From NCBI GenBank assembly GCA_948567375.1, contig OX419757.1:48977665-49041664 (forward strand): 64,000 nt of DNA, in the 5' to 3' direction. Source of the DNA: Lunularia cruciata. Its lineage: Eukaryota; Streptophyta; Marchantiopsida; Lunulariales; Lunulariaceae. Shown in pieces: positions 470-58,499 of the stretch. Position numbers and translations under genes: made by a program. The number at the start of each line of letters is the position of its first letter. Positions within the stretch are counted from its first letter, which is position 1. Under the pieces are notes generated by a model. The model was given only the letters and a program-made list of their open reading frames with translations. It was not told the origin of the DNA and did not search any database.

Positions 470-1132
470 TGTCGTGCGTATATACATCGCTACACAACAT
501 ACATCGCTGTCAACATCATACACTATAAAAGCACAACTCACACATAAGTCATACATAGACTCTAAAGTGCCACAATAATCAGATTGCTTAACACTTTCAA
601 CTCAACTCAACTCAGATCAATACTTGATCTGTCACTCTATAAACTGCCAACAACTGGGCACTGATTACAGTCAAGCCACACCCACTCAAGCATAAAGAAT
701 CTAGGTGACGCTTGCCGGCCTCTGTCCACCATAGCCAGGAACTCGAAGGCTCAACATCAGAGAAGTGAGCTCTCTGGAGCTCACTTCGAAACTATACCCC
801 CTGGACTCGAGCTAGCCCTGAAACCCTAACGGTCACGCTGATGGCACACTCGACGGTGCAAACGGTGCAAAGTGACGGTGGGCCCCACCGTGAAGTCAGT
901 ACCCCGAACACGAAATCTAACCGTCGGAAAGTAGTCCCTAAGAAACAGCTAGAATAACTCTAACTACCATCACTGGAACTCCAGTGTCCGAGCATCTAGA
1001 TGCGGAACTACAAATGGCGAGATAGCTGTCGTGCGTATATACATCGCTACACAACATACATCGCTGTCAACATCATACACTATAAAAGCACAACTCACAC
1101 ATAAGTCATACATAGACTCTAAAGTGCCACAA
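470..1132 (-). repeat. Composite 3' end: a 106-bp direct repeat on both sides of an LTR body
   Basis: A 106-bp unit at 470-575 (starts TGTCGTGCG, ends GTGCCACAA) recurs at 1027-1132 with no difference seen by eye. Between them, 576-1019 matches 9894-10337 of the 5' LTR over 444 bp with about seven substitutions. The 5' LTR has no copy of the 106-bp unit on either side. The target duplication abuts the outer unit, so that unit is a true end of the inserted DNA. The unit contains TATAAAAG on the plus strand, antisense to the element. Confidence 0.8.
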
Positions 1133-1144
1133 TCGCCCCCCTAG
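1133..1144 (-). other. Polypurine tract of the methyltransferase element
   Basis: On the minus strand this reads TAGGGGGGCGA directly next to the inner 106-bp repeat. A purine run abutting the 3' LTR is where gypsy elements prime plus-strand DNA synthesis. It lies 157 bases past the pol stop codon. Confidence 0.6.
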
Positions 1145-1300
1145 CTGGCGGTTAGGTCCCTCTAACTCCAGATAGCCATCTACTCTAAGTATATGGTATA
1201 CTCTCTAATGGGCAAAGATCAGGAGGCCGGGTGCTATGGAGCCCCATCATTAGTCGCCTGTTTGCAATCTATACCATATAAAGAATGAACTAGCTACAGG

Positions 1301-3805
1301 TCAAGTACATCTAGGACATAACCACTGTCCCTGAGGAACCACCGTGAGGGGAGGAGTCATACATGCCATATGCCATCCTCTCGAACAGCTATCACACACT
1401 AACATAGTAGCAGCTCCACCAGAAGAGCCACATAACATACACCTCAAGCCTGCACGTACAAGTGCCAAGCTTGGGTCCATAGTACCATCAATGTTTGGAA
1501 GGTGGCATGGCGCACAATTGCGCACATGATCCTTCCAAACAACACCATCACATCCTTCTAACACAAGGACTCCAGATGGCAAAACCTCGCGCACTCTCAA
1601 GATAGTGCGGCCTGTAGAAACATCAAGTGTCGTCGGTGCTGTCTGCTGTAGATATACATAGTCGCCTGGATGAAATCGACGGATCGAGGGTCTATAACCT
1701 CCTCCTCGAATGGTAGCATAGCGTAAAGTATCTCTATGCTGAGCAATCGCCAATTTCTCAAAGGCCATCGGCATCACTCTCCGAAAGATCTCTGCCCGGT
1801 GAGAACATGAGCTCATCCATACATCGGGGTCATCCAAGTCCAAAACTACAGTAGCATCTTGACAAATGGCTGTAGGTAAATCTGGATCTCGTCCATAGAG
1901 TAGAAAGTATGGAGAGAAGGATGCTAAGGAGGCTTGCCGGCTGAACCGATAGCCCATGGCCAACCAAGGTAACTGGAGATCCCAATCTCCCAAGTGGCCT
2001 CTCTGCAAACCATACTTTTGTAATCCTCTCTTCACCGTCTGAACCACTCTCTCTGCTAAGCCATCTGCCTCAGGGTGATCTCGGGATGTAGTACGATGAT
2101 CAATCAAAGCCTTGTCACACAAGACCTGAAACTCTCCCAAGAACTCTGTACCCTGATCAGTCAAAACCTCAGCTGGTGCACCAAAATGACTAAGAACTCG
2201 ATCCAGGAACGAGTAAGCTGTCCCTTCACTAGACTTGTCAGGAAGTGCCACCAACTCAATCCACTTGGAGAAGTGCTCCACCATCACCAAAACATACCGA
2301 TGATGTCTCACAATCAGCGGTAAAGGTCCGGCGAAGTCCAAACTCCAACGGTAACCCAATCCCATGATAGGTAATGGGTGTAACTGTGGCGTAGGAGCAT
2401 TGAATGATGCTCTAACTCGGTCACAAACCACACATCTGGCAACAAACTGCTGTACCTCGGTCTGCATACCGTGCCACCAATAATGACTCTGGAGTAAGCT
2501 ATATGTACGCTTTACTCCAAAATGTCCTAGCTCCTCATGAGCATGACGGACCAACTGTGGTCTCTGTGATGGAAGTGGTACTACTCGCACTCTACCATCT
2601 TCCCATACACGCAAAAGGTGTCTACCCTCCAATCTGAACCGTCTGGCTCGCTGAAGAACACGGTCTCTCTCCTTGGCCCCAACTGTGCCACCCACAACAC
2701 CAGTGCGAAGATAGTCCATCACTAAGACATCATCATGAATGTCTCGCTGAACTGTACCAATATCTTCACTCTCTGGATCTGTGACCTCAATAACTCCTCC
2801 TGTATGCGCTGAGAGAGATACCACCAAAGTCTCTGCAAATATACACAGAAAGGCCGATGCATGCCAACCTGGCACCATCTCCTCATCTGTCTCACCATGC
2901 CAACGTGCTCCGGTCTGATCCTGCTGGCTGGGACATGGGTTTCTACTCAACCCATCTGCATCACGGTTCACCACTCCAGGTCTGTGAACAACCGTGAAAT
3001 CATACTCCTGTAAAATCAGAGCCCATCGTGCAAGCTTCCCTGAAAGCTTGTCGGACTCCATCAACCACTTTAGCGGCTGATGATCAGTGATGAGAGTGAA
3101 GGGGTTACCAAATAGGTAACATCGGAAATGTGCTACTGCCCAAACTGCTGCCAAGCACTCTCCCTCATATGAACTATACTTCGCCTCCGCTGAATTGTTG
3201 GAGCGACTAGCATAGGCCACCACAAACTCCTTCTCCTCATCATCATGCTGGGTGAGCACCGCTCCAAGCCCCAACATACTCCAATCAGTGTGAACCTGAA
3301 ATGGTCGTCCTCTTATCGGTCTCCTCAAAATAGGAGCAGATGTCAACCTCTCCTTGAGCTCTACAAAAGCTCTCTCCTGCTCATCTCCCCAACACCACTC
3401 CTGTGTAAGCTTGGTCAGCTTCGTGAAGGCCTTGGCAATGGCACTAAATCCTCTAACATAGCGGCGATAGAAGTTCGCCAACCCAAGGAATGCTCGCACT
3501 CTGCTCACATCCGTAGGCCGAGGAATACGTGCAATAGCCTCCACCTTGGTCTGCTGAACACCAAGTCCTCCGGGGTAGATAGTGTGACCCAAATACTCAA
3601 CCTGCTCATGGAAGAACCTACACTTCCCAGGATGTAATTTGAGTCCATGAGATCTCAACCTCTCAAACACCTCCAACAACTGTCTCTCATGCTCCTCCAC
3701 AGTAGTGCTATACACCAAAATGTCATCAATATAGCACCGAGCAAAATCCAGTCCAGCTAGGATCCTATCCATGACCCTCTGGAACTCAGCAGGAGCATTC
3801 TTCAA
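1301..3805 (-). CDS. pol C-terminal part: RT palm, RNase H, integrase, PHD finger
   Basis: This 834-residue open stretch starts within RT and is in the same frame as everything upstream; the leading Met is internal to RT and not a true start. The RT active site YIDD is at about residues 25-28. RNase H has TDWS at 173-176, where gypsy usually has TDAS, and DHQPLKWL near 241-248. Integrase has a zinc-binding HHCC region at about 421-461 and the catalytic residues D490, D550 and E585. The C terminus is a perfect C4HC3 PHD finger at 789-833 (C789, C792, C804, C807, H812, C815, C830, C833) with W828 before the last pair. PHD fingers commonly read histone H3 tails, so a chromatin-tethering role for integrase is inferred. 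No chromodomain is present. The stop is TGA. Confidence 0.88.
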   Translation of the reverse strand: MKNAPAEFQRVMDRILAGLDFARCYIDDILVYSTTVEEHERQLLEVFERLRSHGLKLHPGKCRFFHEQVEYLGHTIYPGGLGVQQTKVEAIARIPRPTDVSRVRAFLGLANFYRRYVRGFSAIAKAFTKLTKLTQEWCWGDEQERAFVELKERLTSAPILRRPIRGRPFQVHTDWSMLGLGAVLTQHDDEEKEFVVAYASRSNNSAEAKYSSYEGECLAAVWAVAHFRCYLFGNPFTLITDHQPLKWLMESDKLSGKLARWALILQEYDFTVVHRPGVVNRDADGLSRNPCPSQQDQTGARWHGETDEEMVPGWHASAFLCIFAETLVVSLSAHTGGVIEVTDPESEDIGTVQRDIHDDVLVMDYLRTGVVGGTVGAKERDRVLQRARRFRLEGRHLLRVWEDGRVRVVPLPSQRPQLVRHAHEELGHFGVKRTYSLLQSHYWWHGMQTEVQQFVARCVVCDRVRASFNAPTPQLHPLPIMGLGYRWSLDFAGPLPLIVRHHRYVLVMVEHFSKWIELVALPDKSSEGTAYSFLDRVLSHFGAPAEVLTDQGTEFLGEFQVLCDKALIDHRTTSRDHPEADGLAERVVQTVKRGLQKYGLQRGHLGDWDLQLPWLAMGYRFSRQASLASFSPYFLLYGRDPDLPTAICQDATVVLDLDDPDVWMSSCSHRAEIFRRVMPMAFEKLAIAQHRDTLRYATIRGGGYRPSIRRFHPGDYVYLQQTAPTTLDVSTGRTILRVREVLPSGVLVLEGCDGVVWKDHVRNCAPCHLPNIDGTMDPSLALVRAGLRCMLCGSSGGAATMLVCDSCSRGWHMACMTPPLTVVPQGQWLCPRCT

Positions 3806-3919
3806 CCCAAATGGTAAGAATCTCCACTAATATAACACATCCTTGCCGTGAGGATCAATAGCCCAAAATGCTATCTTGGACTTATCTTCCTCCCTGATCG
3901 GCAACTGATGATATCCCGC

Positions 3920-4306
3920 TCAAAGATCCAAAGTACTGAAGACCTTTGCATGCCCAATCGCATCAAAAATCTCCTCCGGTGTAGGCATGGCATACCGATC
4001 AGCCCTGGTCTGTCGGTTGATAGGACGGTAATCTCCACACATCCGCCTATCTGTATAGTTGCCATGCATATCCTTCTTGGCTGGCATCACTGTCGCTGAT
4101 GCATACTCTCTATGTGAAATCTCCACCAAACCAGCCTCAAAAAGATCACTACTCTGGCTCTGAATCAATGTCCTCTCCATCTCACTATATCGATAAGGAC
4201 GTCGGAAAACTGGTGTGTCGCTAGTCAGCTCAATCCGTATACCAGGTCCCTTCAGAGCACCCAAATCCTTCATACTGAAGGCAAAACAACTCGTGTGACT
4301 CCTCAA
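3920..4306 (-). CDS. RT N-terminal part of the methyltransferase element
   Basis: Residues match the start of gypsy reverse transcriptase: a YRYSEMER-like entry, CGDYRPIN and the motif STLDL that carries the first catalytic aspartate. It ends at TGA (3920-3922), exactly where the conserved LDLRAGYHQ motif has arginine, so a CGA to TGA change is the likely cause. The frame continues through AGYHQLPI to a TAG at 3827-3829 and then into the next open stretch. Upstream the frame is open back to the TAG at 4415. Read as one pol gene with point stops. Confidence 0.82.
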   Translation of the reverse strand: MRSHTSCFAFSMKDLGALKGPGIRIELTSDTPVFRRPYRYSEMERTLIQSQSSDLFEAGLVEISHREYASATVMPAKKDMHGNYTDRRMCGDYRPINRQTRADRYAMPTPEEIFDAIGHAKVFSTLDL

Positions 4307-4414
4307 GAACCTCCAAACCCTCCGTCTTTCCTCTCCAGTAAGCTTGGGTCCAAGATCTGGCTCCCAAGTATCCTCTGTAACTGTAGTAGGAGTGGAAGAC
4401 GTACTGACTGGCTG

Positions 4415-6229
4415 CTACACTGGGCCCTTGGGAGCAATGGTGTCATGCTCCCAACCACTAGAGGTCCCAACCTCTGTGTGAAAAACTCCCTCCACTCTGG
4501 CTGCAAGCTCCATACGTCCTCTGGCTGCATCCCATGTGGACCAAGGGTGTAATCCAAGTAGCCCATGCTCACCTGGATGGACTCCAAGTAGACCACTCTC
4601 CCTAGTAGCTACTGGACGTGTCCCAAGAATACCATGTCCACTCGGTCCATCGCCCCCAGCATGTGCCTGAATCGTCTCGATTGGCACAAGGCTCACAAGT
4701 GTCCGAGTGGTGATGCCTATCAAGCGCATCCTACGCTGCTCTACCAAACCAAGGCTCACAATCCAGATCAAACAGTTCAGGTCCATAGCCTGACCTAACA
4801 CTTGACGCCTGGATGCCTCTGACATTGCTGGAACAGCGGTAATACCAGTGCGAAAACCCATTGCCCGCTCTCTCTCATCAGCATTGGGCTCCACCAACTG
4901 CTGTAACTGTGAGTCCCAAACAAGTCCAGGTCCTCCCTCTCGAAAAGCATGAGAGCCTGGGAAACTCATGAGTGTGGGAAATGCAGCTCTAGGCTGTCCA
5001 ACTAGGTTCACCACTGCCATAGGTGACCTATCAGCCACTACCACTGTCTGAGACTGACGTCCAGCATCCAAGATATCATCAACAAGAATGTGGTCTATTC
5101 GCTGAATCCCATCATAACTACGCTGTAGAACCTCTCTGGGTAAAAGGTTCGTCCACCAAAGACGAAGACGATGAGCCCGTGATCCCACTCTGGCTGCATC
5201 TAACAATACAGCAGGTCCCATCCAAGAATGGACCTGATGTGTACTCACCACCACTCTAGTGCGAGAATCACCCATCAATGGAACGTTCTCCAAAAGGTAA
5301 GCTGGAGAAATAGACTGATGAACCTGGAGATGTCGTAATATCCGTAACATCTCCCAAAACACACCAGAACGAGGATCCTGAAGACCCAAACCGCGGCCCG
5401 CACGTGTATGTCCCTGACATGGCCATCCAGAAATCACCAAGTGAATAGGCCCATGTCTCTCTAGGTCATGCGCCCCCAATAAGGAAATGTCTCCTGGTAA
5501 GGCCTTCTGGTAACCTCTGACTGCTGACATCAGTAATAACTCCGGATACCGATAGGCCAAGTGTGCCACATGATGTAGAGAGACTCGCCTAGCAGTCTCA
5601 TCTCTCTCTATATACAAGTACCTCTGTACTCGGATACCCGCTTGTAACACCGCAGCTAGTCCGGTGCTGATCCCACCAAACAACTCTAATAGACATATCC
5701 CCTCTACTGGATACTGCCAAGCAATGAGTGTGGTATCCAGAGGTGTCAAAGCAATCGCCTCTGGAGGCTCATCTTCACACTCATCCCCTGATGGTACGAA
5801 GGCTCCACTCCAAGCCTGCTGCACCAACTGATCTGCATGTTGCTGCAATGCCTCCTCTGAACTCCACAATGGAACATCCAAGGTGGATGGAACAATCCCA
5901 CTCGTACTCCATAGCCGAGTGATCTCCTCTGGTACTGGAGTATCCTCTACATGGGCGTTCCCCTCCAACAAGTCACCAGGCCAAGTAACTGCACCGCTGA
6001 AAGCCAAAACTGATGTTGCCATGGTCCCGGACTGTAGTGAGCCAAGACTACCACTACTAAAGCGTACTGGTAGGCGACATACCCGTCCCTCACCAGACTG
6101 CCAACCAGGTCTATAAGAGGCTGTCTCCTCCCAATAGTCAATACTGAAACCCATAGGGTATAACACTGCTTCCCCAACTAGCACATCATATGACTCAGCT
6201 ATCGTCGCAATAGCCTGAGCTCTCACCAC
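4415..6229 (-). CDS. Cytosine-5 DNA methyltransferase domain within gag-pol
   Basis: This 604-residue stretch begins with the end of protease (DVLVGEAVL, about 15-23) and carries a complete m5C methyltransferase at about 175-492. The motifs occur in canonical order: motif I LLELFGGISTG (180-190, S-adenosylmethionine binding), motif IV SGWPCQG with the catalytic cysteine C271, motif VI LLENVPL (E314, N315), motif VIII RLRLWWTN (354-361), then ERERAMGF (452-459) and DLN (483-485) of motifs IX-X. The product would transfer a methyl group to C5 of cytosine in DNA. The domain sits between protease and RT, an insertion ordinary gypsy elements lack. The motif IV to VI spacing and the GWPCQG signature differ from plant MET1 and CMT types; a DNMT3/DRM-like or bacterial or phage-like origin cannot be settled by eye. 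It ends at a TAG followed by CAG. Confidence 0.9.
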   Translation of the reverse strand: MVRAQAIATIAESYDVLVGEAVLYPMGFSIDYWEETASYRPGWQSGEGRVCRLPVRFSSGSLGSLQSGTMATSVLAFSGAVTWPGDLLEGNAHVEDTPVPEEITRLWSTSGIVPSTLDVPLWSSEEALQQHADQLVQQAWSGAFVPSGDECEDEPPEAIALTPLDTTLIAWQYPVEGICLLELFGGISTGLAAVLQAGIRVQRYLYIERDETARRVSLHHVAHLAYRYPELLLMSAVRGYQKALPGDISLLGAHDLERHGPIHLVISGWPCQGHTRAGRGLGLQDPRSGVFWEMLRILRHLQVHQSISPAYLLENVPLMGDSRTRVVVSTHQVHSWMGPAVLLDAARVGSRAHRLRLWWTNLLPREVLQRSYDGIQRIDHILVDDILDAGRQSQTVVVADRSPMAVVNLVGQPRAAFPTLMSFPGSHAFREGGPGLVWDSQLQQLVEPNADERERAMGFRTGITAVPAMSEASRRQVLGQAMDLNCLIWIVSLGLVEQRRMRLIGITTRTLVSLVPIETIQAHAGGDGPSGHGILGTRPVATRESGLLGVHPGEHGLLGLHPWSTWDAARGRMELAARVEGVFHTEVGTSSGWEHDTIAPKGPV

Positions 6230-6259
6230 TGAGCTATCAGTCGGATGACCAGGCTGAAC

Positions 6260-7858
6260 CTAGACAACAAGCTCCCCACGTGTGATGTACTGTGTCGAAC
6301 CACCACCTAGAGATGTCTGGATCTGAAATGGACACCTCTCCACATCGGTCTTCCATAACTCCAGACCAACAACTGCAGCCTTCCCCAACATAAGGGGCTG
6401 CGCACCAGAGTCTAACAAGACTCTCTGTGGTGTATAGACCTTCCCTGAAGGTCCCACTAAACGAAAGATCCCCCTCTGGTTATCCAATAGGACAACACCA
6501 GGTGTAAACCGCGCTCTCTCAAAGGCCGGTCTAGCTGGCAACTCCTCCAGTCTAGCCGCTGCTGCCTGCCATAAACCATTGGTCGCTGAACGGATCCCAT
6601 GCTCTTCAACCAAGTCAGCTCCACTACCAACCACCTCTGCTCTAGTAGTAGGAACTGCACCATCCCTACTCTCACACAACGTGGCAGCCAACCGGAACAC
6701 TGGGGCTCGGTCAACTCCCAATGTAAACATGTCACTGGCTGAAAATAAAGGATGCCGCATAATCAGCTGAGCCGCCCCCAACATCATGCTAGACTCAGTC
6801 TGTGTAGTAGCAGGTGGCTGACTAGCAGGTAATCCATCATGTACTCCATCACCACCTACCACACCTGCACTGGGACGTCTAGGAACCATGGATGTCGTCT
6901 GCAATGCCTCAGATAGCGTGAAAGACTGGGGAAGTCTGACCTGTCTCCCAACCTCTCCTCTCTGTGGGTCCAACTCCACTGATGCTCCTCTAGGCTCTGG
7001 AGCACGTACTGCACTCCTAGTCACTGCTGCAGATGCATCCACCTGTGTTGCTCCGCACATGAAGTCCAAAGCATCTCTATCACCAGCATATGAGGTGGAA
7101 GCCTCAGCACCCGAATCTGATCTCCTCTGAGCAATAGCCATACTAGCCAATCTCTGCTCCAACTGCTCAATCCGAGTAGCCATAGCTGTGTCAGAAGTAA
7201 GGGCAGGTACTGCACCCCTACTAGGTGTAGATCCTCTACCACCACCTCTACCACCTCGTCCTCCATGAACTGGAGCTCCTCTACTACCTGCCATAGCAGT
7301 CCTACCACTCCGTAACTCCGGGTGTAGGTCAAAACACCGGTCACTAGTGTGACCAAATCTGTGGCAATGCTCACACTGTCTCTGTGATGGCTGTGATGCA
7401 CCAGAGGTATGAGGTCCGCTGCCCTGAGTACACTCTCTCCTATGGTGAGGTCCACCACAAGTCCAACAAGCAACACCACCACTCACTGGCTGCTGCTGAC
7501 CCGAAAATGAGGGTAAGGGTCTAACTCCACTAGGCCCTCCACTCGCTCCATAGGATCTGGGCTGTCCACCCTGTCCTCGAAAACCAACTGGGCGTGGTGC
7601 ACTCTGCTGCACTCTAGAAGAAGTCACAACCGTGGATGAGGTCTCTCTACCAAATCCAGCTGTCACCACTCTCTCCTCCACCATGTTGAGCTCAATACGC
7701 TCAGCCAAACCAAAGACTACTGCCAAAGTGGGTGAAGTAGCCTGCAACAACGTATCATCACGAACTCTACGTCGCAACTCCCTGTCCAGTATCCCATACC
7801 AAAACTGGACTGCTTGGGCCTCAGTAACTCCCTGAGTGAAACTGATCAGCCGCCTCAT
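6260..7858 (-). CDS. gag C-terminal part, two zinc knuckles and protease
   Basis: The 532 residues start with a gag capsid-like tail (RRLISFTQG, FWYGILD), then basic and glycine-rich sequence, then two nucleocapsid zinc knuckles: CWTCGGPHHRREC (spacing slightly off the standard) and CEHCHRFGHTSDRC (a standard CX2CX4HX4C). An R/G-rich stretch follows. The aspartic protease active site reads LLDSGAQ near the C terminus. The end is a TAG at 6260-6262 inside protease, after which the frame continues to the protease flap and the LVG motif in the next segment. The true beginning is upstream, across the TAG at 7898. Confidence 0.85.
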   Translation of the reverse strand: MRRLISFTQGVTEAQAVQFWYGILDRELRRRVRDDTLLQATSPTLAVVFGLAERIELNMVEERVVTAGFGRETSSTVVTSSRVQQSAPRPVGFRGQGGQPRSYGASGGPSGVRPLPSFSGQQQPVSGGVACWTCGGPHHRRECTQGSGPHTSGASQPSQRQCEHCHRFGHTSDRCFDLHPELRSGRTAMAGSRGAPVHGGRGGRGGGRGSTPSRGAVPALTSDTAMATRIEQLEQRLASMAIAQRRSDSGAEASTSYAGDRDALDFMCGATQVDASAAVTRSAVRAPEPRGASVELDPQRGEVGRQVRLPQSFTLSEALQTTSMVPRRPSAGVVGGDGVHDGLPASQPPATTQTESSMMLGAAQLIMRHPLFSASDMFTLGVDRAPVFRLAATLCESRDGAVPTTRAEVVGSGADLVEEHGIRSATNGLWQAAAARLEELPARPAFERARFTPGVVLLDNQRGIFRLVGPSGKVYTPQRVLLDSGAQPLMLGKAAVVGLELWKTDVERCPFQIQTSLGGGSTQYITRGELVV

Positions 7859-7897
7859 GCGAGTGTATGCCTCGCGTAGGCTCTCTCCAGCCTTCCG

Positions 7898-8647
7898 CTA
7901 GAACTCCTGCAAGCTCCTCAGCTTGTCAGTCCGCACTCCCTGGTAGTTCTGCCTCAAACATAGGAAGAACTCCACCATGGGGTTAAACCCTAGTACCACA
8001 CCACCTCCTGCAGCGGTACCTCCACTCGTAGTAGCACTATCTCCAGCTAGTGCACCTCCACTAGCTCCACCAACACTACTCGAGCTAGAACTCGTAGGTA
8101 CAGCCGACCTACTCCTGGCCACCAAACCTGAAGTGATGGAGACATAGTGTGGAGACCAATACTGTCTCCATAACTCAATCTCCTCCAAATGAGCTCTCCT
8201 GAACTCATGGTAGTCGTCCATCGGTGGACCCTCCAAGTGCTGAAACAACCCCTTCCATGCCATGAAAGGTGTGAACAAAGTCGGGTTCCGCATCTGCTGC
8301 AGATCACACCAACTATCAAACTCCTGGATGAAGTCATCCAACTCAATGGTACCCATTGTACCTGAGTAACGCCTAGGGCCTTTGGAGGCCCCATAAATCT
8401 CGTCCATGTCCCACAACAACGGTGCGGACACACCAAGTGCACTCTCAACTGAATCAGCTCCTGTGTCGAACTCCAACTCAGAGTCAATCTCCTCCCTCAC
8501 TGGGACCTGAGATACAGGCTGATACCGAGCACCACTCCGAGTAAACCCACTACGTACTGCAGGGCTAACTCCTCTGGAATCTCCAAAGAACTCCGTCGTG
8601 ACCACGTAACTGCAATAGCAAACCCGAACTACCAACTGCAACCGCAA
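7898..8647 (-). CDS. gag N-terminal part of the methyltransferase element
   Basis: This open stretch of about 249 codons has a retrotransposon gag character: a predicted helical core with aromatic and acidic residues (ELDDFIQEFDSW, MDDYHEFRRAHLEEIELW) and a serine/glycine-rich hinge. It ends at a TAG (7898-7900) in frame with the rest of gag. The start is unclear. The frame is open back to a TAG at 8711 and has no ATG until the motif WDMDEIYG, so either the original ATG was mutated or translation starts there. The leader to its right is non-coding. Confidence 0.75.
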   Translation of the reverse strand: MRLQLVVRVCYCSYVVTTEFFGDSRGVSPAVRSGFTRSGARYQPVSQVPVREEIDSELEFDTGADSVESALGVSAPLLWDMDEIYGASKGPRRYSGTMGTIELDDFIQEFDSWCDLQQMRNPTLFTPFMAWKGLFQHLEGPPMDDYHEFRRAHLEEIELWRQYWSPHYVSITSGLVARSRSAVPTSSSSSSVGGASGGALAGDSATTSGGTAAGGGVVLGFNPMVEFFLCLRQNYQGVRTDKLRSLQEF

Positions 8648-9146
8648 GTCGCAACTGCAAGTGCCCCACCAAGTGCCAACACCAACTAGACACCACCCAC
8701 TAATGTAACTCTAACCGAGATAACTACACTAGGGGAAGGGCAACCTGTAACCTGCCATCATAACACGCACTCTCACGGTCTGCAGGTCATCACTTCCTGC
8801 CTCACCGGAGAGAAACAAAGGTAGTCTGACTGGTCATCACTCCAGCCTCACCACCGAGAGCACACCAGAGCACCAACGCTCAAAAGTCAAGGCACCTCAC
8901 ACAAACGTGGTGCACAAACAGGAAGTAGAGAATGGAGGGGATCCAATCACAAGAAATCTAAACGAAAACCCTCCATCTCATAACACAACACGGGATTGAC
9001 TCTGCCACCATTTAGCATTTGACATAAGAGTAGTTCATATCTAAGTCCTAAGCTACCAGGATCACCAAGAATGGGATCAAACTGCCTCTCCTAGCCAAAG
9101 CTACATGTGTATAGATAACAGTGGCACAGTCACTATGACAACAAGT

Positions 9147-9215
9147 GAGGGTAGACCAGTTGGCTAGGGCACCAGTCTAGGAACAAGAGATCTAGGGGTC
9201 AAACCCTGTTGCGCA
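9147..9215 (+). repeat. tRNA-like segment, possible SINE head
   Basis: The plus strand has a box A-like TAGACCAGTTGG (9152-9163), one mismatch from the Pol III consensus, and a box B-like GGTCAAACC (about 9197-9205), with spacing typical of tRNA genes and tRNA-derived SINEs. The cloverleaf is not well formed, so this is not a functional tRNA gene. It is antisense to the host element and lies in its leader. Confidence 0.4.
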
Positions 9216-9377
9216 CAATCTAGCAAGAAAGGCAGATTTTGCCAACCAATGACCAAGATCTACACTAAACTAGCTAGCCTCACGCCAGCAAGCTGGCTTG
9301 CTGGCCCTTCTAGGCCTTCGTAGCCTCTCATAGCCCACAGCCCTATGCCTCGAAGCCTCTTGTTGCCACTTCGAACC

Positions 9378-9478
9378 TCCTCCAAAATTGGCAAAACTTC
9401 TCCAAATCTGCAAAACTCCTCCAAACTAGCGAAACTTCTCCAAATCTGGCCAAACAGGGAAACTCCTCCAAATTTGAC
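9378..9478. repeat. Short minisatellite in the leader
   Basis: Four to five imperfect units of about 19-28 bp, each starting CTCCAAA and containing an AAACT core, follow each other here. They lie in the 5' leader of the methyltransferase element. No coding meaning is apparent. Confidence 0.6.
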
Positions 9479-9891
9479 GTAAAATCTGACGTAAACCCTA
9501 AAGATGGATGTCCGCCAAATCCCCCGCTAACTTTCCACTCGAGCCAAATTGACAAAACGGGTTTTTCCAAATCACAATTTCATGAGAAGAGCTTTCCAAC
9601 TCCACCTTCAATTTCACTTTCTGAGCCCAACTCGCAGCAAATTGGTCCTGCCTTCACCTCCTAAGCTCAAAATCACAACACTGCTCGAAAATTGCTCCTT
9701 CTTTGCTCAAAATTTGGCCAGCGCTTCCGCACACCGTCCGCCTAACTGCCAAATTTGCATCAACTACACGAGCTTCTGCACACTAGGGAAACACAGAACC
9801 TGAATCGAGCTACCACGATCCACCGAGCTTGGAGATACCACCAACACTCAACGTTCTTGCACCCGATTTCCCCCTGACTTCACTTCTCTGA

Positions 9892-10342
9892 TGTAATCAG
9901 ATTGCTTAACACTTTCAACTCAACTCAACTCAGATCAATACTTGATCTGTCACTCTATAAACTGCCAACAACTGGGCACTGATTACAGTCAAGCCACACC
10001 CACTCAAGCATAAAGAATCTAGGTGACGCTCGCCGGCCTCTGTCCACCATAGCCAGGAACTCGAAGGCTCAACATCAGAGAAGTGAGCTCTCTGGAGCTC
10101 ACTTCGAAACTATACCCCCTGGACTTGAGCTAGCCCTGAAACCCTAACGGTCCCGCTGACGGCACACTCGACGGTGCAAACGGTGCAAAGTGACAGTGGG
10201 CCCCACCGTGAAGTCAGTACCCCGAACACAAAATCTAACCGTCGGAAAGTAGTCCCTGAGAAACAGCTAGAATAACTCTAACTACCATCACTGGAACTCC
10301 AGTGTCCGAGCATCTAGATGCGGAACTACAAATGGCGTGACA
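9892..10342 (-). mobile_element. 5' LTR of the methyltransferase element
   Basis: 451 bp, reading TGTCACGCC to GATTACA on the minus strand, so it has the TG/CA ends expected of an LTR. The body 9894-10337 is repeated at 576-1019. The outer end is fixed by the TGCC target duplication. The terminal sequences differ from those of the 3' end, which is unusual because both LTRs are normally copied from one template. Confidence 0.85.
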
Positions 10343-10631
10343 TGCCCTATTAGTAGAAGTGCTCTTTTGGTGATACCTCTATCTAATCTACTTTATCCAT
10401 CATATATAACATCCTTCCAAATGTCACCACTCCGAGTTTCACCTCTAGATCATATGCCTAGCTATTGATTCTAAAGTTTCCAAGCATGTTTTGGTTTTTG
10501 GCCTATTAATAAAAGTACTCTTTTGGTGATACCTCTGTCTGATCTATTTAGTCTAGCATGTATAACATCCTTCCAGATGTTACCAAACCAAATTTCATCT
10601 CTAGATCATTTGTCTAGTTGTTGGTATTACA
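10343..10631 (-). mobile_element. Family R LTR, right part (continuation of 3-469)
   Basis: This piece resumes the LTR at the words CCCTATTAGTAGAAG and ends GGTATTACA, the terminus seen in all family R copies. The first four bases (TGCC, 10343-10346) repeat 466-469 and are the target-site duplication of the inserted element. No family R polypurine tract or coding sequence follows 10631, so a solo LTR is the simplest reading. It is more diverged than the other family R LTRs in the window, which fits an old insertion. Confidence 0.85.
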
Positions 10632-13505: not shown

Positions 13506-16500
13506 GATGTTTGGTGGCAGGTCGAGTTACATAAGGCCATGGGGGGATAAAGATCAATCACTTGGCTGATCCTACCATATATTTAATCACTTGGTTGATC
13601 CTAAACTCTTTATAATTTTGATACACAAAAGCTTCAAAGTATCCTCAGTCTACCCAATAGTTTCTTTTTACTTACAATCTAAAATAAGATAATTCTACTT
13701 TTTATGATATGTTTTTGGAAGAACAATCTTGAGACTTGGCACAAGAAATTTTTCACTATGGGTTCCAAATAAGATGTTTTAGTAGATAGATTGTAGATAA
13801 GCTTTTAAATGCTATATAATTTGTCCTAATTTAACTATTATAGCTCAATAGCAAGTATCTTTAGCTTGGTTTGATTTTGTTGCTTTGAACCCCATGTCAA
13901 AAGACTAAACAAAGTACCACTCTTGGTTCTTACTAAATTTTTCAATAGTCTTGGCTGAGGTGTTTAATTAGATATAAGGAACTCTCCAATAACTTATCAC
14001 TCCTTCAACCATTACCTCACATGGAAAAGTTACAACCAATTTGAATGGTAGATGAAACAATCCTTAGATGCTTATGAAAACATTTTTACTCAAGTTTGAT
14101 AGATAAAATCTTGTTCCTTTAAACCTAATGTAACCAAAAATACAAGATAATTTTCTATGAATTGGTCTAAAGCTCTATGGAGTTTAGTACTTGAATTCAT
14201 GACCAATTTTTATATATAGATCAATTGCTAGGTTGGACTACCATTTGAAGTCTACAAACTTATGTTTATTTGATCCAAGACCTTGAATTCTCTCCTTGAG
14301 TACTTCACACTTATATTTACACAAAGGTACACAACCAAGCCACCAACAATGCTACCATATGTTACAACCCACATTGAACTAGAACTTGACAAGTGACCAA
14401 ACCCCTAAGTTGATCATTATCTCCACATGAACATCTTAGTTTCAAGTCTTTTGACGTCAATTGATCATGTCATATTTAGTATTGACTCAAAAGAAGACTA
14501 TTTAAGGCATAGCTTAGATGCAATGAACTTGGAACCAAAATAAACTACCATCCAAACCCAAAAATGATCATTGTGCATAAATTAGAGCTTAATGTGAAAA
14601 GTGAATGGGAAGAGGTAGGTGAAGAGTACCACACATCCCTTTCATTATGCCCACTACTTAGCTTCTACCTTCAACACTCTACCACAACTCAAGACTCTAA
14701 ATACCAAAAACACACACCTCTCTATTGAACCTTCATCACCTATAAAGCTTGTAATTGTATCTTGGATCTTGGGTATGGATGAGTAGTCCACCTCTTTCTC
14801 TTTATAAATGTTGCCTCTCTCTTGTGGCAAAGGAGTACCTTTGGCCTTAATTTTTCAAGATATAGAGTTAGTGATGTTACTTTGAAAAGGTGCTTAAACT
14901 AAGCTTACATTGTAAATAAATTAGTATGGAATAATGCAAAGTCATATTGCATTGGTGCTTGCATCTAAATTATGATTAATATGGACAATATAAAACATTT
15001 TTATATCATGGCTAAAGGTGAAATCCTTGGATTTATGGAAGATGAAATTTTGTGAAATCACTTGTGAAGAAATTTTTCATTATCAAGAACAAGCATTAGG
15101 GGCTTTGAAGATAATCAAATATAGTACTAGTGCCAACTATAAACAATGAAAACTAGGGATCAATAAGTTTTAATGTAATGAATATATTAGCAACTCTTGA
15201 GAAATCAAAGTCCTTGGGTTTTAGGTGGAGTTTGATTATAAGGTAAAACTTATAGGCTTAGTTATAAGGCTAAAACTTTACTTATAAGGCTAAAAATTAT
15301 AATTGATGAAAGTGCACTACCAAGATTGGAGCTTGCAGCTAAATTTTACTCCACATAGGGAAACTTATTAAGTCTAAACATAATAAGGATTGACATATTG
15401 GAGATCTTTCTTGATTCTATGGGTGCATGGCCCTTCTCAATTAGTAGAGTCATTTTTCTAGTTAATTCTATTAGCAAAAAATAACTTAACTAGCTAAGCA
15501 AGGACTTGTCTTTGTGGTCATGATACCATAGGATACATATTAGTCATTAGAGGTAGTTTGATGCTTGTGAAAATAAGTACAATTAGTAAAATTTTGCAAT
15601 AACCAAGTTAAAGATCTTTAGTTAAGTTAGTATGGCTAAGTAAGGAGAGAGATTTAATATTTCATTATTGGATACTCAATGGGATCTCCTAGTAAAACAA
15701 AAATTAGTGTATATTTGAGTGGGACCTCCATCTTGGACTTCGCATGGTCAAATTGACTTGGTATATACAAAGTGTTGAAATCCTCTTGCCTTAACCAACT
15801 TAGATGACCTATGGTCAAGTTGGGTAGATTTGACTTACCTTGGGATATATTGTAATTTTTAATTAGAAGAAAGTTCTAGATACTTAGAAAATATTCTTGG
15901 AAGCTTCCAAAATTAAGCATGTGGAGCCACAAACTCATGTGGTTGCCCATTGAAAAACATTTATTACCTAGGGTAATTTAGAAAAATTAGGGATTTTATC
16001 AAGCCACAAAGGTTCTTACTGTGATATATAAGGTGAGGCTTAAAAGGTGAAAAGAATCCATTCCTCAATGAGCTTAAAGCATAGAGTGAGTGAGTGGAAT
16101 GAGACTTTGTGATATTTCTGTTTGAGAATAACATTACTATGGTGTTGATATTGGAGGAATCTCTAACTCTAGAGGACTCTTTTGTGATTGTGAGAGAAGG
16201 ATAATCTATGTTCACAGTGGTGAACTGCTCCATTGGAGCTCATTTTTTAAGGGTGTTTGCATAAGAGAGAGAATAAGTGACAAGAGGTAAAAATGAAAGA
16301 ATTGGAGAGTGAATGAGAATCATCTCTATATTATTATCCATGATGATGCCTAATAGCAATATGTTTTCCTTCTAGCACATGATAAATATACAACTATCAC
16401 TAGAAGTATCTCTTAGATGAGTGATAGACCTTGCACATTTCTCTTTGCATTTTAGGTCCCATTTTTGGATCCTCTCTAAAAAGAGTGAGGACATGTATTA

Positions 16501-18404: not shown

Positions 18405-21400
18405 CTACCTTCTATGGTACATCTTCAACTTATCATGGTTAATCCTATCAAAGTGTCTTCCTCCCAACTCCTTGAGATCATAAGTGTAATTTCCCCACAC
18501 CTTCTCTACTATGAAAGGTCCAAAGTACTTAGGCAAAAAATTATTTTGTACTCTCTTGAATCGAATGGAATCAAACAACATTACCCAATCACCTTCTTTG
18601 AAAGGCTCCACCTTCTTCTTGCCTTGCCTCTTGTCATAGCTCTCCTTTTGTTTCCTTTGGGCTTGCTCCACTCGAACCATAGCAACTACTCTTGCCTCTT
18701 CCAACTCCATGAGTTGATCCTTCCTTGACTTCTCTGCATCACTTCCTTGTGCTTTCTTCAATCTCCTATGAATGCTTTGGAAGGTAGGAAGATCAAAGTG
18801 AATAGGTAAGGTAGACTCAATACCATACACCAATTGGAATGGAGAATATCCAGTGGAAGTCTTCATGGTTGTCCTATACTCCCACAAAACTGCATGAATC
18901 CTCTTGTCCCAATGATGTTTAGCCCCCTCCATTTCTGCATCTTTGGCCAACATCATGCACAAGGTCTGATTGGTTCTCTCTGCCAAGCCATTGGAATTTG
19001 GCTTATAGGATGTAGTTACTCTATGTGTGATAGAGAAATGTCGTAGCATGGCTGTAGTAATGCTTCCTGTAAACTCTCCTCCTCTATCAGAAACCAACTC
19101 CAAAGGGCATCCAAACCTAGTGATAATGCGTTCATAAAGAAATCTACCCACTTCATCTTCATTCTTGTCCCTCAATGGTCTAGCCTCAACCCACTTGGTA
19201 AGGTAATCAGTAACTACCACAATGTACCGATTGTTCCTTGGGGTTCTATTGAGAGGTCCTACAAAATCAATTCCCCACTTCTCAAAGGGTCCTAGCAATG
19301 GAATTGATCTAAGTGGTGGAGTGGATGTAGACTTTCTAGCAAAAGCTTGACAAACATGACAAGTTTTGCAATAATCAAGACAATCCTTGAAAATCCCTCT
19401 CCAATGGTAACCTGCATCTAGAATCTTGAAAGCAGTCACCTTTCCTGCAAAGTGTCCTCCACATACTAAACCTTCATGAAGCTCCTTTATGAGTAGGATA
19501 GACTCTTCCTTACCCACTGCTCTTCGAAGTAGACCATCTGCTCCTTGGTGAAAAAGAATATCATCCACCATTGTGTAAGGTCTAGATCTTGCTGCAAGGG
19601 CCTTCCTCTCCCTAGCATGCATCCCTTCTGGATAGTTACCTCTTGTCACAAAATCCACAATCTCCTTGTACTCCATTGGAACCTCTTGAGTGACTGAGAT
19701 TGTCATGAGCTCCTCATCCGGGAAGGAATCATCTACTGGCTCATCTCCATCATGATCATAGGCTCTAGATAACAAATCAGCATTTGCATGTTTCTTTCCT
19801 GGCCTATCCTCAATTGTGTAGTCATACTCAGACAAGAGAATCATCCACCTTGCTAGTCTCCCTTCAACATTAGGCTTGTTGAAGATGTACTTCAAAGCCT
19901 TGTGATCCGTGACAATTGTGGCTTTCCCTCCAATCAAGTAGTGTCTAAACTTCTTGAGACCAAAGATCACTGCCAACCCTTCTCTCTCTGTGACAGAGTA
20001 GTTCTTCTCTGCTGAAACCATCTGCCTACTAGCATAAGCTATTGGATGATCATGCCCATCTTGGTCTAATTGACTAAGAGTGCATCCTATAGCTACATTA
20101 GAAGCATCAGTGTAGAGGATGAAAGGCTTACTCCAATCAGGTTTAGCAAGAATTGGAGCTACAACAAGGGATTGCTTGAGCTCCTCAAAAGCTTTGAGAG
20201 CCTCCTTGTCTTCCAAAATCACCATGTAATCTACACCCTTCTTCATGTAGATGGTCAATGCATAAGCCTTGTTGGAAAATGAGAAGATGAACCTCCTATA
20301 GTACCCAACCATTCCCAAGAATTGGCGTAACTTTGTCAAGCTTGAAGGGAATGGAAGGTCTGAGATTTTCCTCACCTTCTCAGGATCAACTGCTATTCCA
20401 TCCTTGGAGATGATGTGCCCCAAAAGTAGACCTTCTTCACATCCAAAAATGCACTTCTCTGGGTTGAGTGATGCATTTGCCTCATCCAAGCGTTGCAAGA
20501 CTTTGATTAGGTGCTCAAAGTGCTCCTCCTTGCTCCCATAGACACAAAAGTCATCAATGAAATCTCTCACAAATTTCCCAATGAAAGGTTCAAATACCTT
20601 GTTCATGAACCGTTGGAATGTGGCTGGAGCATTGCAAAGCCCAAAAGGCATGACCTTGAAAGCGTAAGTTCCCCAAGGTGTGGTGAATGTGGTGAGTTGT
20701 TGATGCTCTGGTGCAATCTTGATTTGGTTATATCCACTATAACCATCTCCAAAACTGTACCTCTCATGACCTGCAACCTCCTCCAAGATCTCATCAATGA
20801 ATGGCAATGGGTAGTAGTCCTTCTTGGTAACAGCATTGAGCTTCTTGTAATCCACACATACCCGAAGCTTGCCATTCTTTTTCTTCACAATGACAATTGG
20901 AGACACCCATTCTGAATTCTCCACCTCAAAGATAAATCCAGCCTCCTTGAGCTTATCAATCTCCTCCTTCACAACCAAAGATATTGGTGGGCTAATGCGA
21001 CGTTGCTTTTGGCGGATTGGTCTTGCATGTGACTCCACCTCTATCTTGTGCTCCTCCAAGGTGACTTCCTTCAAATCCTTGTAACTAAAAGCAAACACAT
21101 GGATGAACTTGCGGAAAATCTCCTCAAATCTCACCTTCTCCTCCTTGGTAACATTTGGGCCATACTTGAGGGTAGATAACCTTCTCTCTACCTCCTCAAG
21201 TGTCAATGGTGATTTATCTGGGTCCTTCAAAACCTCTGGCTTAGGTGCAAAATCCATAGCACACAAAGGATACACATCTGAATCAGATTCAGATTCATCC
21301 TCCTCCGTGGAAGTCTCCTCTTCCATGCTTGTGTCCACACCTGAAGCTCCTCCTTCAGAATCAGATTCCCAATAATCAGAAGATGGGGTATCTGAATGTG

Positions 21401-21605
21401 AAGTGTTGGTGGTGTTAGTCACAGGAACAGTGACTCTATGGTTTGATGGCCCAATCCTTAAGTACCCTTTGTGCCATCGATCAGTTGTGCGTGCTGCTCT
21501 CAACCATGGCCTCCCAAGAAGTAAGTCATAGCTTGAATCCTTCAAGACTTGGAAAGTCATGAGATTTTGAACTCCCATAACTGAAACTACCACCTTATCC
21601 ATCAC
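18405..21605 (-). CDS. pol of the family S element (RT, RNase H, integrase)
   Basis: This 1066-codon open frame continues gag after one in-frame TGA (21615-21617); the leading codon is GTG and translation is not expected to start here. It begins with the end of protease (LLLGRPWL, residues 28-35), then an acidic linker (70-110). RT has WVSPIVIV near 233-240, the first aspartate in DGYSGYNQ (D287) and FIDD at 349-352. RNase H has YTDAS (498-502) and TDHKALKY (566-573). Integrase has HHCC at about 710-753 and catalytic D780, D840 and E876. A C-terminal KRVQNNFLPKYFGPF-type module ends in basic residues without a chromodomain. All catalytic residues are present, so it appears functional apart from the stop upstream. 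Confidence 0.93.
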   Translation of the reverse strand: MMDKVVVSVMGVQNLMTFQVLKDSSYDLLLGRPWLRAARTTDRWHKGYLRIGPSNHRVTVPVTNTTNTSHSDTPSSDYWESDSEGGASGVDTSMEEETSTEEDESESDSDVYPLCAMDFAPKPEVLKDPDKSPLTLEEVERRLSTLKYGPNVTKEEKVRFEEIFRKFIHVFAFSYKDLKEVTLEEHKIEVESHARPIRQKQRRISPPISLVVKEEIDKLKEAGFIFEVENSEWVSPIVIVKKKNGKLRVCVDYKKLNAVTKKDYYPLPFIDEILEEVAGHERYSFGDGYSGYNQIKIAPEHQQLTTFTTPWGTYAFKVMPFGLCNAPATFQRFMNKVFEPFIGKFVRDFIDDFCVYGSKEEHFEHLIKVLQRLDEANASLNPEKCIFGCEEGLLLGHIISKDGIAVDPEKVRKISDLPFPSSLTKLRQFLGMVGYYRRFIFSFSNKAYALTIYMKKGVDYMVILEDKEALKAFEELKQSLVVAPILAKPDWSKPFILYTDASNVAIGCTLSQLDQDGHDHPIAYASRQMVSAEKNYSVTEREGLAVIFGLKKFRHYLIGGKATIVTDHKALKYIFNKPNVEGRLARWMILLSEYDYTIEDRPGKKHANADLLSRAYDHDGDEPVDDSFPDEELMTISVTQEVPMEYKEIVDFVTRGNYPEGMHARERKALAARSRPYTMVDDILFHQGADGLLRRAVGKEESILLIKELHEGLVCGGHFAGKVTAFKILDAGYHWRGIFKDCLDYCKTCHVCQAFARKSTSTPPLRSIPLLGPFEKWGIDFVGPLNRTPRNNRYIVVVTDYLTKWVEARPLRDKNEDEVGRFLYERIITRFGCPLELVSDRGGEFTGSITTAMLRHFSITHRVTTSYKPNSNGLAERTNQTLCMMLAKDAEMEGAKHHWDKRIHAVLWEYRTTMKTSTGYSPFQLVYGIESTLPIHFDLPTFQSIHRRLKKAQGSDAEKSRKDQLMELEEARVVAMVRVEQAQRKQKESYDKRQGKKKVEPFKEGDWVMLFDSIRFKRVQNNFLPKYFGPFIVEKVWGNYTYDLKELGGRHFDRINHDKLKMYHRR

Positions 21606-21614
21606 TCCTACTGG

Positions 21615-23231
21615 TCAAACTTGTTGCTTGTTTGCCATGCTCACCACAAATGTTGAAGCTCTTGAGGGTATCATACCCAACTTCTTCATCAACCTTTCTG
21701 ACATGGCATTCACTGCTGATCCTCCATCAACCAATGCATCCTTGATGTTGTGACCATTCACTCTCACATCAATCTTGGAGGCATATTCACAAGCTTCCCA
21801 TGGTGCTGGCTTGGCATCCACCACCCCCATTGATATTGGAACTTTTGCCTTCTTCTTCTTCTTGCTCCTTGTAGAACTCAAACCACCTCTAAGCTCCTTT
21901 CTCAAGGTAGGGTTCAAAGCAATTAATTGGCCCACTGTGATGTTAGCCTTGTGACTACCAACATCCTCCAACACATTGTAGTTCCATTGTTGCTTGGAGA
22001 TCAAGAAGTCCTCCATCCCCAACTTCTTCCTTGTAGTCTTTGTTGTTGATGGTGTTGAGGTGCGAGTGCTCCTAGTAGACATAGGAGTATCCTTGCTTGA
22101 AGTAAATCCTTGAGAAGAGTGAACATCCTCTGCAAAACGAGCTCTCTTCTTCTCTTGTGCCAAAAGCTCCAAATTAGGACCCTTGGAGTTTGAGCACTCT
22201 CCCTTCTCATACTTGCTCTCAACCACATCTATGGATGCTATCCCCTTACCTTTGTTGGGATTAGGAGCCACTTGGGTTTCACTACCTCCCTCTTTCCCTC
22301 TATTGGCTCCCTCATAACCCCTTCCTCCATGGTAAGTGGAATTTGGGCAATTCCTTTGGATATGGCCTCTTCCCCCACAACCAAAACAATTTCTATCATT
22401 GAAATTGTTGGCTGGTTGGCCTCCTCTATATGGATGGTTTCCATAACTCCTAGGCCCTCTCCCTACATTCTGATCCACCTCTCTCTTCTCCCATAATTGC
22501 ACCACATTGATCTTGAGATCCGCAAGTTGTTCTGTGATGGTTTGGAGTGGATCTTTTGGTAGAGGTGCAAGAACTGGAGCAACTACTACTTGTGGTGCAA
22601 CCCTTGTCACCAAAGTATCAGAAGTTCCACCATACTTGTAGCCTTGAGGAGGATGCACAACCTCCTTCACCACCAAATCACTTTCATCCCCTTCCAAACT
22701 CTCCTCCATACGAATTGCGATCTTGATAGCTTCAACCTTGGAAGAAGGTTTCTCATATCTCACCTTGCTTCTAATTTGTGGTCTCAATCCTCCCACAAAA
22801 TTCTTGGTGAGCATGGCCCCTATGCCAATCATTGTAGTCTCCACATCATCCCCACCCTTCCTCAACACTATGCGAAATCTGGACTCCAATTTTTCCACTC
22901 TTTCCACATAGACTCTCACTTTCTCTCCATCTCCTTGCTTGAGAAATGTAACCTCACTCATCAATCTCTCATAACTCTCATCAGGAAGAAAGTTCTCAAT
23001 GAGTGCTGAAGTCAAAGTCTCCCAAGACTCCTCTTCCCCCTCTCTCCTCTCTCTCTTTTGGTATTCTGACTCATACCATGTAAGTGCTGCATCCTCAAAG
23101 AAATCTGGTAATAATGAGGCCCACTCATTCTTCCTCCTCTCATTGTTTCCTATGCAAGCTCTCTTGAAGTCTCTCACAAAGGCCTCCACATCTTCTCCAT
23201 CCTTGCCAAAGAAAACCGGAAGTTTCCCCAT
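21615..23231 (-). CDS. gag and start of protease of the family S element
   Basis: 538 codons starting MGKLPVFFGKDG, a typical gypsy gag opening (PVFFGKDGEDVEAFVRDF). ATG follows AAG and is followed by G, a good plant start context. The gag core runs to about residue 180; the zinc knuckle is CFGCGGRGHIQRNC near 285-298. Protease has DGGSAVNAM near the end, where other families have DSG or DTG. The TGA at 21615-21617 falls between this active site and the LLLG motif, so gag alone would carry half a protease. The following codon is CCA. Relatives are expected to have arginine (CGA) at this point, so a CpG transition is likely; readthrough is the alternative. Confidence 0.92.
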   Translation of the reverse strand: MGKLPVFFGKDGEDVEAFVRDFKRACIGNNERRKNEWASLLPDFFEDAALTWYESEYQKRERREGEEESWETLTSALIENFLPDESYERLMSEVTFLKQGDGEKVRVYVERVEKLESRFRIVLRKGGDDVETTMIGIGAMLTKNFVGGLRPQIRSKVRYEKPSSKVEAIKIAIRMEESLEGDESDLVVKEVVHPPQGYKYGGTSDTLVTRVAPQVVVAPVLAPLPKDPLQTITEQLADLKINVVQLWEKREVDQNVGRGPRSYGNHPYRGGQPANNFNDRNCFGCGGRGHIQRNCPNSTYHGGRGYEGANRGKEGGSETQVAPNPNKGKGIASIDVVESKYEKGECSNSKGPNLELLAQEKKRARFAEDVHSSQGFTSSKDTPMSTRSTRTSTPSTTKTTRKKLGMEDFLISKQQWNYNVLEDVGSHKANITVGQLIALNPTLRKELRGGLSSTRSKKKKKAKVPISMGVVDAKPAPWEACEYASKIDVRVNGHNIKDALVDGGSAVNAMSERLMKKLGMIPSRASTFVVSMANKQQV

Positions 23232-58040: not shown

Positions 58041-58499
58041 TTAAGACGCAACGTCCTCGTTGTGCAATTGTTGCTCAAATGCTTGCACCAATACCGGTGC
58101 ATGTGCCAAATTGGCCGCAGGTTCCCATGTTGCTTCATAGAGGGGGTAACCTTTCCATTGTACTAGATAGTCCACCCGTAGATGGCGAGTACCACGCATG
58201 CGCTTTTGGAGAATCCGCTCCACTTCATATTCCTTTGTGCCATCAATGAGTGTCGGACAAGGTTGAATGTCCTGTGTGGAAGGACCTTGGCTTGATCGGG
58301 GAGCATATCTGCGTAATAGGGAGACATGGAACAGTAGATGGATCTTCATGTGTGGTGGTAGCTCAAGGTGATAGGCTATAGTGCCGATGCGACGAAGAAT
58401 CGAGAAAGGCCCAATAAAATGAGGTCTGAGCTTACGAGATCCAACTAATGTGAGGTTGGTTGTCAATAGCCACACTTGATCCCCAACATTGAACTCCAT
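58041..58499 (-). CDS. Integrase tail and chromodomain, family R element
   Basis: 152 codons after an in-frame TAG. The integrase GPY/F-like module (FIGPFSILRRIGTIAYHLELP, split here as FIGPFSILRR and AYHLELP) is followed by a chromodomain at about residues 97-140: EYEVERIL, YLVQWKGYP and ATWEPAANL, including the aromatic positions that bind methyl-lysine. The C terminus is the true end of pol. Confidence 0.88.
   Translation of the reverse strand: MEFNVGDQVWLLTTNLTLVGSRKLRPHFIGPFSILRRIGTIAYHLELPPHMKIHLLFHVSLLRRYAPRSSQGPSTQDIQPCPTLIDGTKEYEVERILQKRMRGTRHLRVDYLVQWKGYPLYEATWEPAANLAHAPVLVQAFEQQLHNEDVAS

Follow-up and report, generated by a model that had tools for sequence, protein, structure and literature searches.

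Why would a transposon carry an enzyme of the type that silences transposons? This question is raised by a retrotransposon on the minus strand of the window (the whole stretch of DNA that we analyzed, 64,000 nucleotides). An earlier note had described it as a gypsy-type element with a motif-complete cytosine-5 DNA methyltransferase (DNMT) between the protease and the reverse transcriptase (RT) and with a PHD finger. The follow-up confirmed this description: the domain matches the Pfam DNA_methylase profile (PF00145) above its cut-off; motifs I, IV (PCQ), VI (ENV), VIII (RxR), and X lie in order at 5707-4754; and the PHD finger is present at the C-terminal end, as it is in a relative that is described below. 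The features of the element, in window coordinates, are as follows.

470 to 10342, minus strand: whole element, 9,873 bp, with termini TGTCACGCC...GCACGACA
10343 to 10346 and 466 to 469, read on the minus strand: the 4-bp target duplications GGCA that flank the element
9894 to 10342, minus strand: repeat A1 at the 5' end, R-U5 by position
8647 to about 6430, minus strand: gag part, from the sequence
7334 to 7468, minus strand: two zinc knuckles in the gag part, CWTCGGPHHRREC and CEHCHRFGHTSDRC, from the sequence
6260 to 6430 (approximate limits), minus strand: protease core VLLDSGAQPLMLG, by eye from the sequence
4754 to 5707, minus strand: DNMT domain, a profile match, free of stops in the window copy
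4415 to 4417, minus strand: TAG, then CAGCCA (the UAG-CARYYA type of leaky stop), from alignments of the family and the relative
3002 to 4414, minus strand: RT and RNase H, from profile search and sequence
2072 to 2569, minus strand: integrase, with an H2C2 zinc-binding domain and a DDE core (rve), from profile search
1307 to 1441, minus strand: PHD finger at the C terminus (E = 5.7e-11; the relative's PHD finger, E = 4.3e-10)
1134 to 1148 (limits by eye), minus strand: polypurine tract AGGGGGGCGAT, adjoining repeat B1
1026 to 1133, minus strand: repeat B1, U3 by position
577 to 1025, minus strand: repeat A2, 98.2% identical to A1
470 to 576, minus strand: repeat B2 at the 3' end, identical to B1

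The element at 470-10342 is a Ty3/gypsy-type retrotransposon. Its domains share a single frame in the order gag, protease, DNMT, RT, RNase H, integrase, and PHD finger, and the protease-RT-RNase H-integrase order with a DDE integrase is that of Ty3/gypsy elements (the protease was recognized by eye, and that of the relative, L251, matches Asp_protease_2 below the cut-off). In the profile search, neither the gag part nor the protease region of the window element had a Pfam match. The RT and RNase H of the window copy contain in-frame stops at 3922-3920 and 3829-3827; other copies too have a stop at the first of these positions, for a total of 12 in 57 rows.

Elsewhere in the window, another gypsy-like element (18405-23231) has reading frames of 1,066 and 538 amino acids in which no DNMT is visible by eye. 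At 58041-58499 is the end of a chromovirus, which has SH3_Tf2-1 and Chromo domains; its chromodomain aromatic cage looks complete by eye, given what we take to be the cage residues. PMC6317226 reports a complete cage only in non-seed plants. A heavily diverged 18S rRNA-like stretch at 14744-15537 (RF01960, 94.3 and 63.3 bits) is presumably an old rDNA pseudogene.

Instead of a pair of identical terminal LTRs, the element has A at the 5' end and B-A-B at the 3' end (A-coding-B-A-B). Such split direct repeats are typical of DIRS elements; however, the window element has an rve integrase and a target duplication, and not the tyrosine recombinase without target duplication of DIRS. When we sampled six further copies, the 3' end was B-A-B in all six, and the 5' end was A alone in five; the 5' end of the sixth copy (L272) gave no match. 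Perfect 4-bp target duplications flank five of the sampled copies as well as the window element. Overall, a target duplication and TG..CA ends were found in 6 of 7 copies, window included, and the seventh (L272/L273) lacks a readable 5' end. A different reading, in which the LTRs are ordinary but the 5' one is truncated and a 108-bp piece is duplicated, was overturned by the ends of the other copies. The polypurine tract, read in two copies, adjoins B1. By position, B thus corresponds to U3 and A to R-U5, and a permutation by one B distinguishes the insert from an ordinary LTR element. How split repeats go together with integrase-type insertion is a separate replication puzzle.

The differences between A1 and A2 are mostly at CG or CHG: across six copies there are 29, including 26 transitions, of which 22 are at such sites. 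Single copies have just 1 to 9 differing sites, so some of the insertions are young. The observed/expected (o/e) ratio for CpG is 0.49 in the element versus 0.22 elsewhere in the window. The decay at CG and CHG and the CpG depletion fit methylation after insertion, for which the host's enzymes alone could suffice.

The window element is a decayed member of a large family of the KnitGypsy-Dnmt3 kind (see below), which also includes some young copies. We searched the genome in which the window lies (566 Mb, 74 contigs, with nearly all of the sequence in eight contigs of 60-85 Mb). A 23-base pattern for motif IV, with up to 2 mismatches, had 3,397 matches, and a pattern for the RT had 5,103; neither reversed pattern had any. 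We sampled the RT sites by taking each fifth entry among the first 100 in the list; all of those drawn lie on contig C1. DNMT sequence was in the expected place at 16 of these 20 sites (at one of them over 145 bases only), and the other 4 had no DNMT match. All 54 of the pol matches that were scored (the best of 61,015 candidates) extend to the end of the query, so each of them includes the PHD finger. We fetched 60 copies, from 60 of 123 scored places, and their DNMTs are 79.5-98.4% identical to that of the window; because these copies were located through the DNMT match, they are uninformative on how often the domain is lost. One diverged, older copy (L304; G000:C1:233761-235461) keeps TAG-CAACTA and the sequence between the DNMT and the stop but has no match to the DNMT core. 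It is possibly a family member that lost the domain.

Outside this genome, we identified one relative, in CADCWO010000201.1 (L088/L251). It encodes gag-protease-DNMT, a TAG, and then RT-RNase H-integrase-PHD in the same frame, with both parts open. Its DNMT is 52% identical to that of the window over 316 residues and keeps the catalytic Cys, ENV, and RxR; from the middle of the RT to the PHD finger of the query, the identity is 67%. The ends of the contig overlap by 127 bases, as in a repeat that was collapsed by the assembler, and the start of gag spans the join. The contig is filed under a genome labeled uncultured Synechococcales AVDCRST_MAG81. Gypsy-like pol matches at 28-40% also occur in five other contigs from this MAG (G001 contigs C16, C91, C92, C123, and C259), and the record therefore probably includes some eukaryotic DNA. 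The relative comes from another organism, probably a eukaryote with DNA that ended up in the cyanobacterial bin. The relative is less depleted in CpG than the window element (o/e of 0.82 versus 0.49). Single-protein scans of viral contigs and genome contigs found no close relative. Scans with mixed alignments yielded 80 loci each, of which only L088 (52%) was of the retro type, with the others at 23-37% identity, a further search for relatives yielded 8 loci with short matches at 26-43% identity, and yet another yielded none.

Where does the DNMT come from? Among the matches listed, DNMT3 is the nearest of the solved C5 enzymes in both sequence and fold, and DNMT3A/3B are closest in the fold comparison. 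There was no DNMT2 chain among the 50 fold matches listed, a listing that excludes nothing. A profile built from the domain together with seven phage enzymes gave DNMT3A/3B up to 147 bits, versus up to 97 bits for DNMT2 chains. We also built a tree of 60 rows, including 6 of the 7 phage loci. Leaving L088 aside, the mixed-alignment scans had given 159 loci, and the 46 of them that match a motif pattern were included as well. In this tree, the retrotransposon rows group together as a single clade (100/100), which has a long branch of its own. The DNMT3-like genes of the host join DNMT3A at 97/95, and constraining the retrotransposon rows and DNMT3 to a joint clade was not rejected (AU p = 0.44). 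In BLASTP comparisons with the window domain, several bacterial or viral enzymes reached up to 96.7 bits, versus 66.6 for DNMT3A and 45.1 for the host's DNMT3, but the bacterial and viral rows had been collected by similarity to the query itself. Thus, the domain is DNMT3-like in fold but far from the host's own DNMT3 genes, and it is probably no recent copy of the host gene. Recent capture from the host's DNMT3 is also unsupported by the BLASTP ranks relative to the window domain (L168 is 59th of 60 and DNMT3A is 46th).

The host's genes comprise two of the DNMT3 type (L168 and L171) and a DRM with rearranged motifs (L169), all labeled from their motifs, and a fragment (L170) that we take to be CMT- or MET-like. 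L171 (G000:C1:51667193-51670357) is the second DNMT3-like locus, and its exon pieces were joined by eye for the tree. DRM is described as confined to streptophytes (PMC12344493), and DNMT3 is described as not found in flowering plants (PMC6453930). Together, these two points indicate a non-flowering streptophyte; the eight large contigs would fit a liverwort, and the host is probably a land plant rather than an alga.

A stop codon assigns the DNMT to the gag part of the element. In an alignment of 61 rows, window included, all 58 rows with sequence at 4417-4415 have TAG there, and the next most common stop column is found in 16 of the 61 rows. The TAG is followed by an exact match to CARYYA (six degenerate bases) in at least 54 of the 58. 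In the draw of 20 RT sites, 17 stretches were readable, and TAG is present in 16 of them (the remaining one has AAG); by our own count, CARYYA is exact in 14 of these 16. The open frame is exactly 1,037 residues in 34 of the 54 pol matches, which by our count is the length back to the TAG. A diverged copy, just 75% identical around the stop, has TAG-CAACTA, and the relative has TAG-CAATCA in the corresponding place. Because of this conserved TAG before the RT, the element has two open reading frames in the same frame: ORF1 is gag-protease-DNMT and ORF2 is RT-RNase H-integrase-PHD. The earlier note had placed the DNMT in frame with gag and pol. The shared frame stands, but the DNMT is split from the RT by a conserved stop of the leaky type and lies on the gag side. 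In plant viruses and other systems, readthrough is favored by a CARYYA immediately 3' of the stop (PMC4132726, PMC2194720), so the sequence context suggests that the TAG would be read through.

There are signs of purifying selection on the DNMT, both along the replicating lineage and between the two elements. Between the window and L251, pN is 0.34 and pS is 0.75 in the DNMT (synonymous sites are saturated), which is similar to the protease (0.36/0.83) and the first part of the RT (0.30/0.78). The pN is 0.23-0.24 in RT/RNase H and integrase and 0.30 in the PHD finger; just 10 codons align in the linker from the DNMT to the stop. Within the genome, we counted nonsynonymous and synonymous variants (N and S) in 57 of the 61 rows, after dropping four with large indels or rearrangement (L208, L185, L195, and L193). 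In the DNMT, N/S falls from 2.47 in singletons to 0.75 in variants shared by 10-28 copies (12:16). Singletons (148:60) differ from variants that occur in at least 5 copies (33:30; p = 0.009); for the RT, the corresponding counts are 107:36 and 19:15 (p = 0.036). N/S also declines as variants become more frequent in the linker between protease and DNMT (p = 0.007), and hence the DNMT is not alone in this trend. The linker from the DNMT to the stop, which has few sites, shows no fall (p = 0.30). Shared transversions in the DNMT number 6 N to 5 S, or 0.29 of expectation (11 changes), and many of the transitions that are shared among copies look recurrent. When pooled over all variant frequencies, the DNMT's ratios are 0.85-1.25 of the neutral expectation, which implies that most of the fetched copies evolve as dead ones. 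Pairwise dN/dS relative to the window is 0.36-0.53 for older, dead copies and 0.29-0.38 for three young copies; because these values mix selection with decay and are biased by transitions, we rest no conclusion on them. The earlier note had called for further copies and for signs of purifying selection, and both were found, with the domain at thousands of places in the genome. It had also named the absence of a profile match, or a lone copy with neutral dN/dS, as evidence against its proposal, and neither was observed.

What might the DNMT do? The best overall explanation, to which we give about an even chance, is a family of the KnitGypsy-Dnmt3 kind whose Gag-side DNMT methylates the element's own cDNA. 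Most translation would end at the TAG and yield Gag-PR-DNMT, so the amount of DNMT would be similar to that of Gag, and the enzyme would be packaged in the particle, while readthrough would supply a little Pol. Once in the particle, the DNMT would most likely serve to methylate the element's cDNA while reverse transcription is under way or very soon afterward, before insertion. The integrase would insert this cDNA, perhaps steered by the PHD finger. Methylation of their own cDNA was proposed for the elements of Symbiodinium, where the DNMT is in Pol; the DNMT of KnitGypsy had no activity in yeast, which was judged inconclusive there (PMC5890265).

A fuller version is more tentative, and we doubt that it holds in all its parts. 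It has a Gag-borne DNMT that premethylates the cDNA, an integrase whose PHD finger would read histones, an integrated linear DNA that would be circularly permuted with its ends at the B|A junction, and a lineage that spans the streptophytes. If self-methylation is true, then copies would be born methylated and quiet, so thousands of them would be possible without harm to the host, and the lineage would be streptophyte-wide rather than an algal oddity.

Alternatively, the DNMT might act on the host genome or the insertion site: freed from the particle or together with the integrase, it would methylate the target chromatin, hiding or silencing neighbors. The PHD finger at the integrase end of both elements and the very high copy number favor this idea, but the stop leaves the DNMT with gag and not with the integrase, and the CpG depletion outside of the element needs no such enzyme. 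We consider it unlikely. Methylated plant genomes are commonly CpG-poor.

Another alternative is that the DNMT methylates nothing and was retained for nucleic-acid binding, assembly, or SAM sensing. The activity of a gypsy-type DNMT is so far unshown (PMC5890265), but retention of the catalytic Cys, ENV, and RxR in two elements whose DNMTs are just 52% identical makes a noncatalytic role improbable. Methylation of RNA (genomic RNA or the primer tRNA) was suggested for the LINE DNMTs of dinoflagellates (PMC5890265), and a gag-side DNMT would be placed beside the packaged RNA. However, both the profile scores (DNMT3A/3B above DNMT2) and the fold (nearest to DNMT3A/3B) argue against this, and we think it quite improbable. 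Last, a one-off or passenger domain that is carried unused in a young burst would be compatible with the near-neutral pooled ratios and the stops in many copies, but is very improbable given the copy number, the conservation between two elements at saturated synonymous sites, and the fall in N/S with variant frequency.

Compared to known systems, neither this kind of element nor the proposal that it methylates its own cDNA is new (PMC5890265), and the earlier note was right about methyltransferase captures in dinoflagellates and a charophyte. The dinoflagellate elements described there, SymbioDIRS-Dnmt3 and SymbioLINE-Dnmt, are also retrotransposons with a cytosine DNMT, but they have tyrosine-recombinase DIRS or LINE backbones and are independent captures. 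Elements of the DIRS/PAT type share the split direct repeats (A1-B1-A2-B2), but they are described as being without an integrase, and their recombinase gives no duplication (PMC4157794), whereas our element has a DDE integrase and a 4-bp duplication. Tobamovirus-type readthrough likewise uses UAG-CARYYA between two parts in the same frame (PMC4132726, PMC2194720); for our element, the likeness is in the sequence only.

The closest system is KnitGypsy-Dnmt3 from Klebsormidium nitens (de Mendoza et al. 2018, PMC5890265). As published, it combines gypsy domains with an intronless Dnmt3-type DNMT that is under purifying selection, and it has DIRS-like repeats despite its gypsy domains; the legend of Fig. 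4 gives the A-coding-B-A-B plan for both DIRS and KnitGypsy-Dnmt3. Judged against this description, our family also has gypsy domains, a Dnmt3-type DNMT, and DIRS-like repeats. However, the DNMT of KnitGypsy-Dnmt3 is reported in the ORF for the Pol polyprotein, its host is an alga, and its copies are fewer than in Symbiodinium. Our DNMT shares the pol frame but precedes the conserved TAG, and the family departs from the description in its gag-side DNMT ahead of TAG-CARYYA, its PHD finger, its 4-bp duplications, and a copy number in the thousands. The main text of PMC5890265 (figures and supplements apart) contains neither "PHD" nor "readthrough," and "site duplication" appears there only for SymbioLINE. 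Our searches of the open PMC literature turned up no DNMT retrotransposon from a land plant, none whose DNMT precedes a leaky-type stop on the gag side, and none with a PHD finger. Such transposons were stated to be absent from land plants such as tracheophytes (PMC6338049). This statement is too wide if our host, whose genome has its own DRM and DNMT3 genes and carries thousands of copies, is a land plant. As far as the search extends, what is new relative to KnitGypsy-Dnmt3 is the apparent land-plant host, the gag-side DNMT behind a leaky-type stop, and the copy number. Because the conserved stop puts the enzyme on the gag side, the question of why a transposon carries a transposon-silencing type of enzyme becomes testable.
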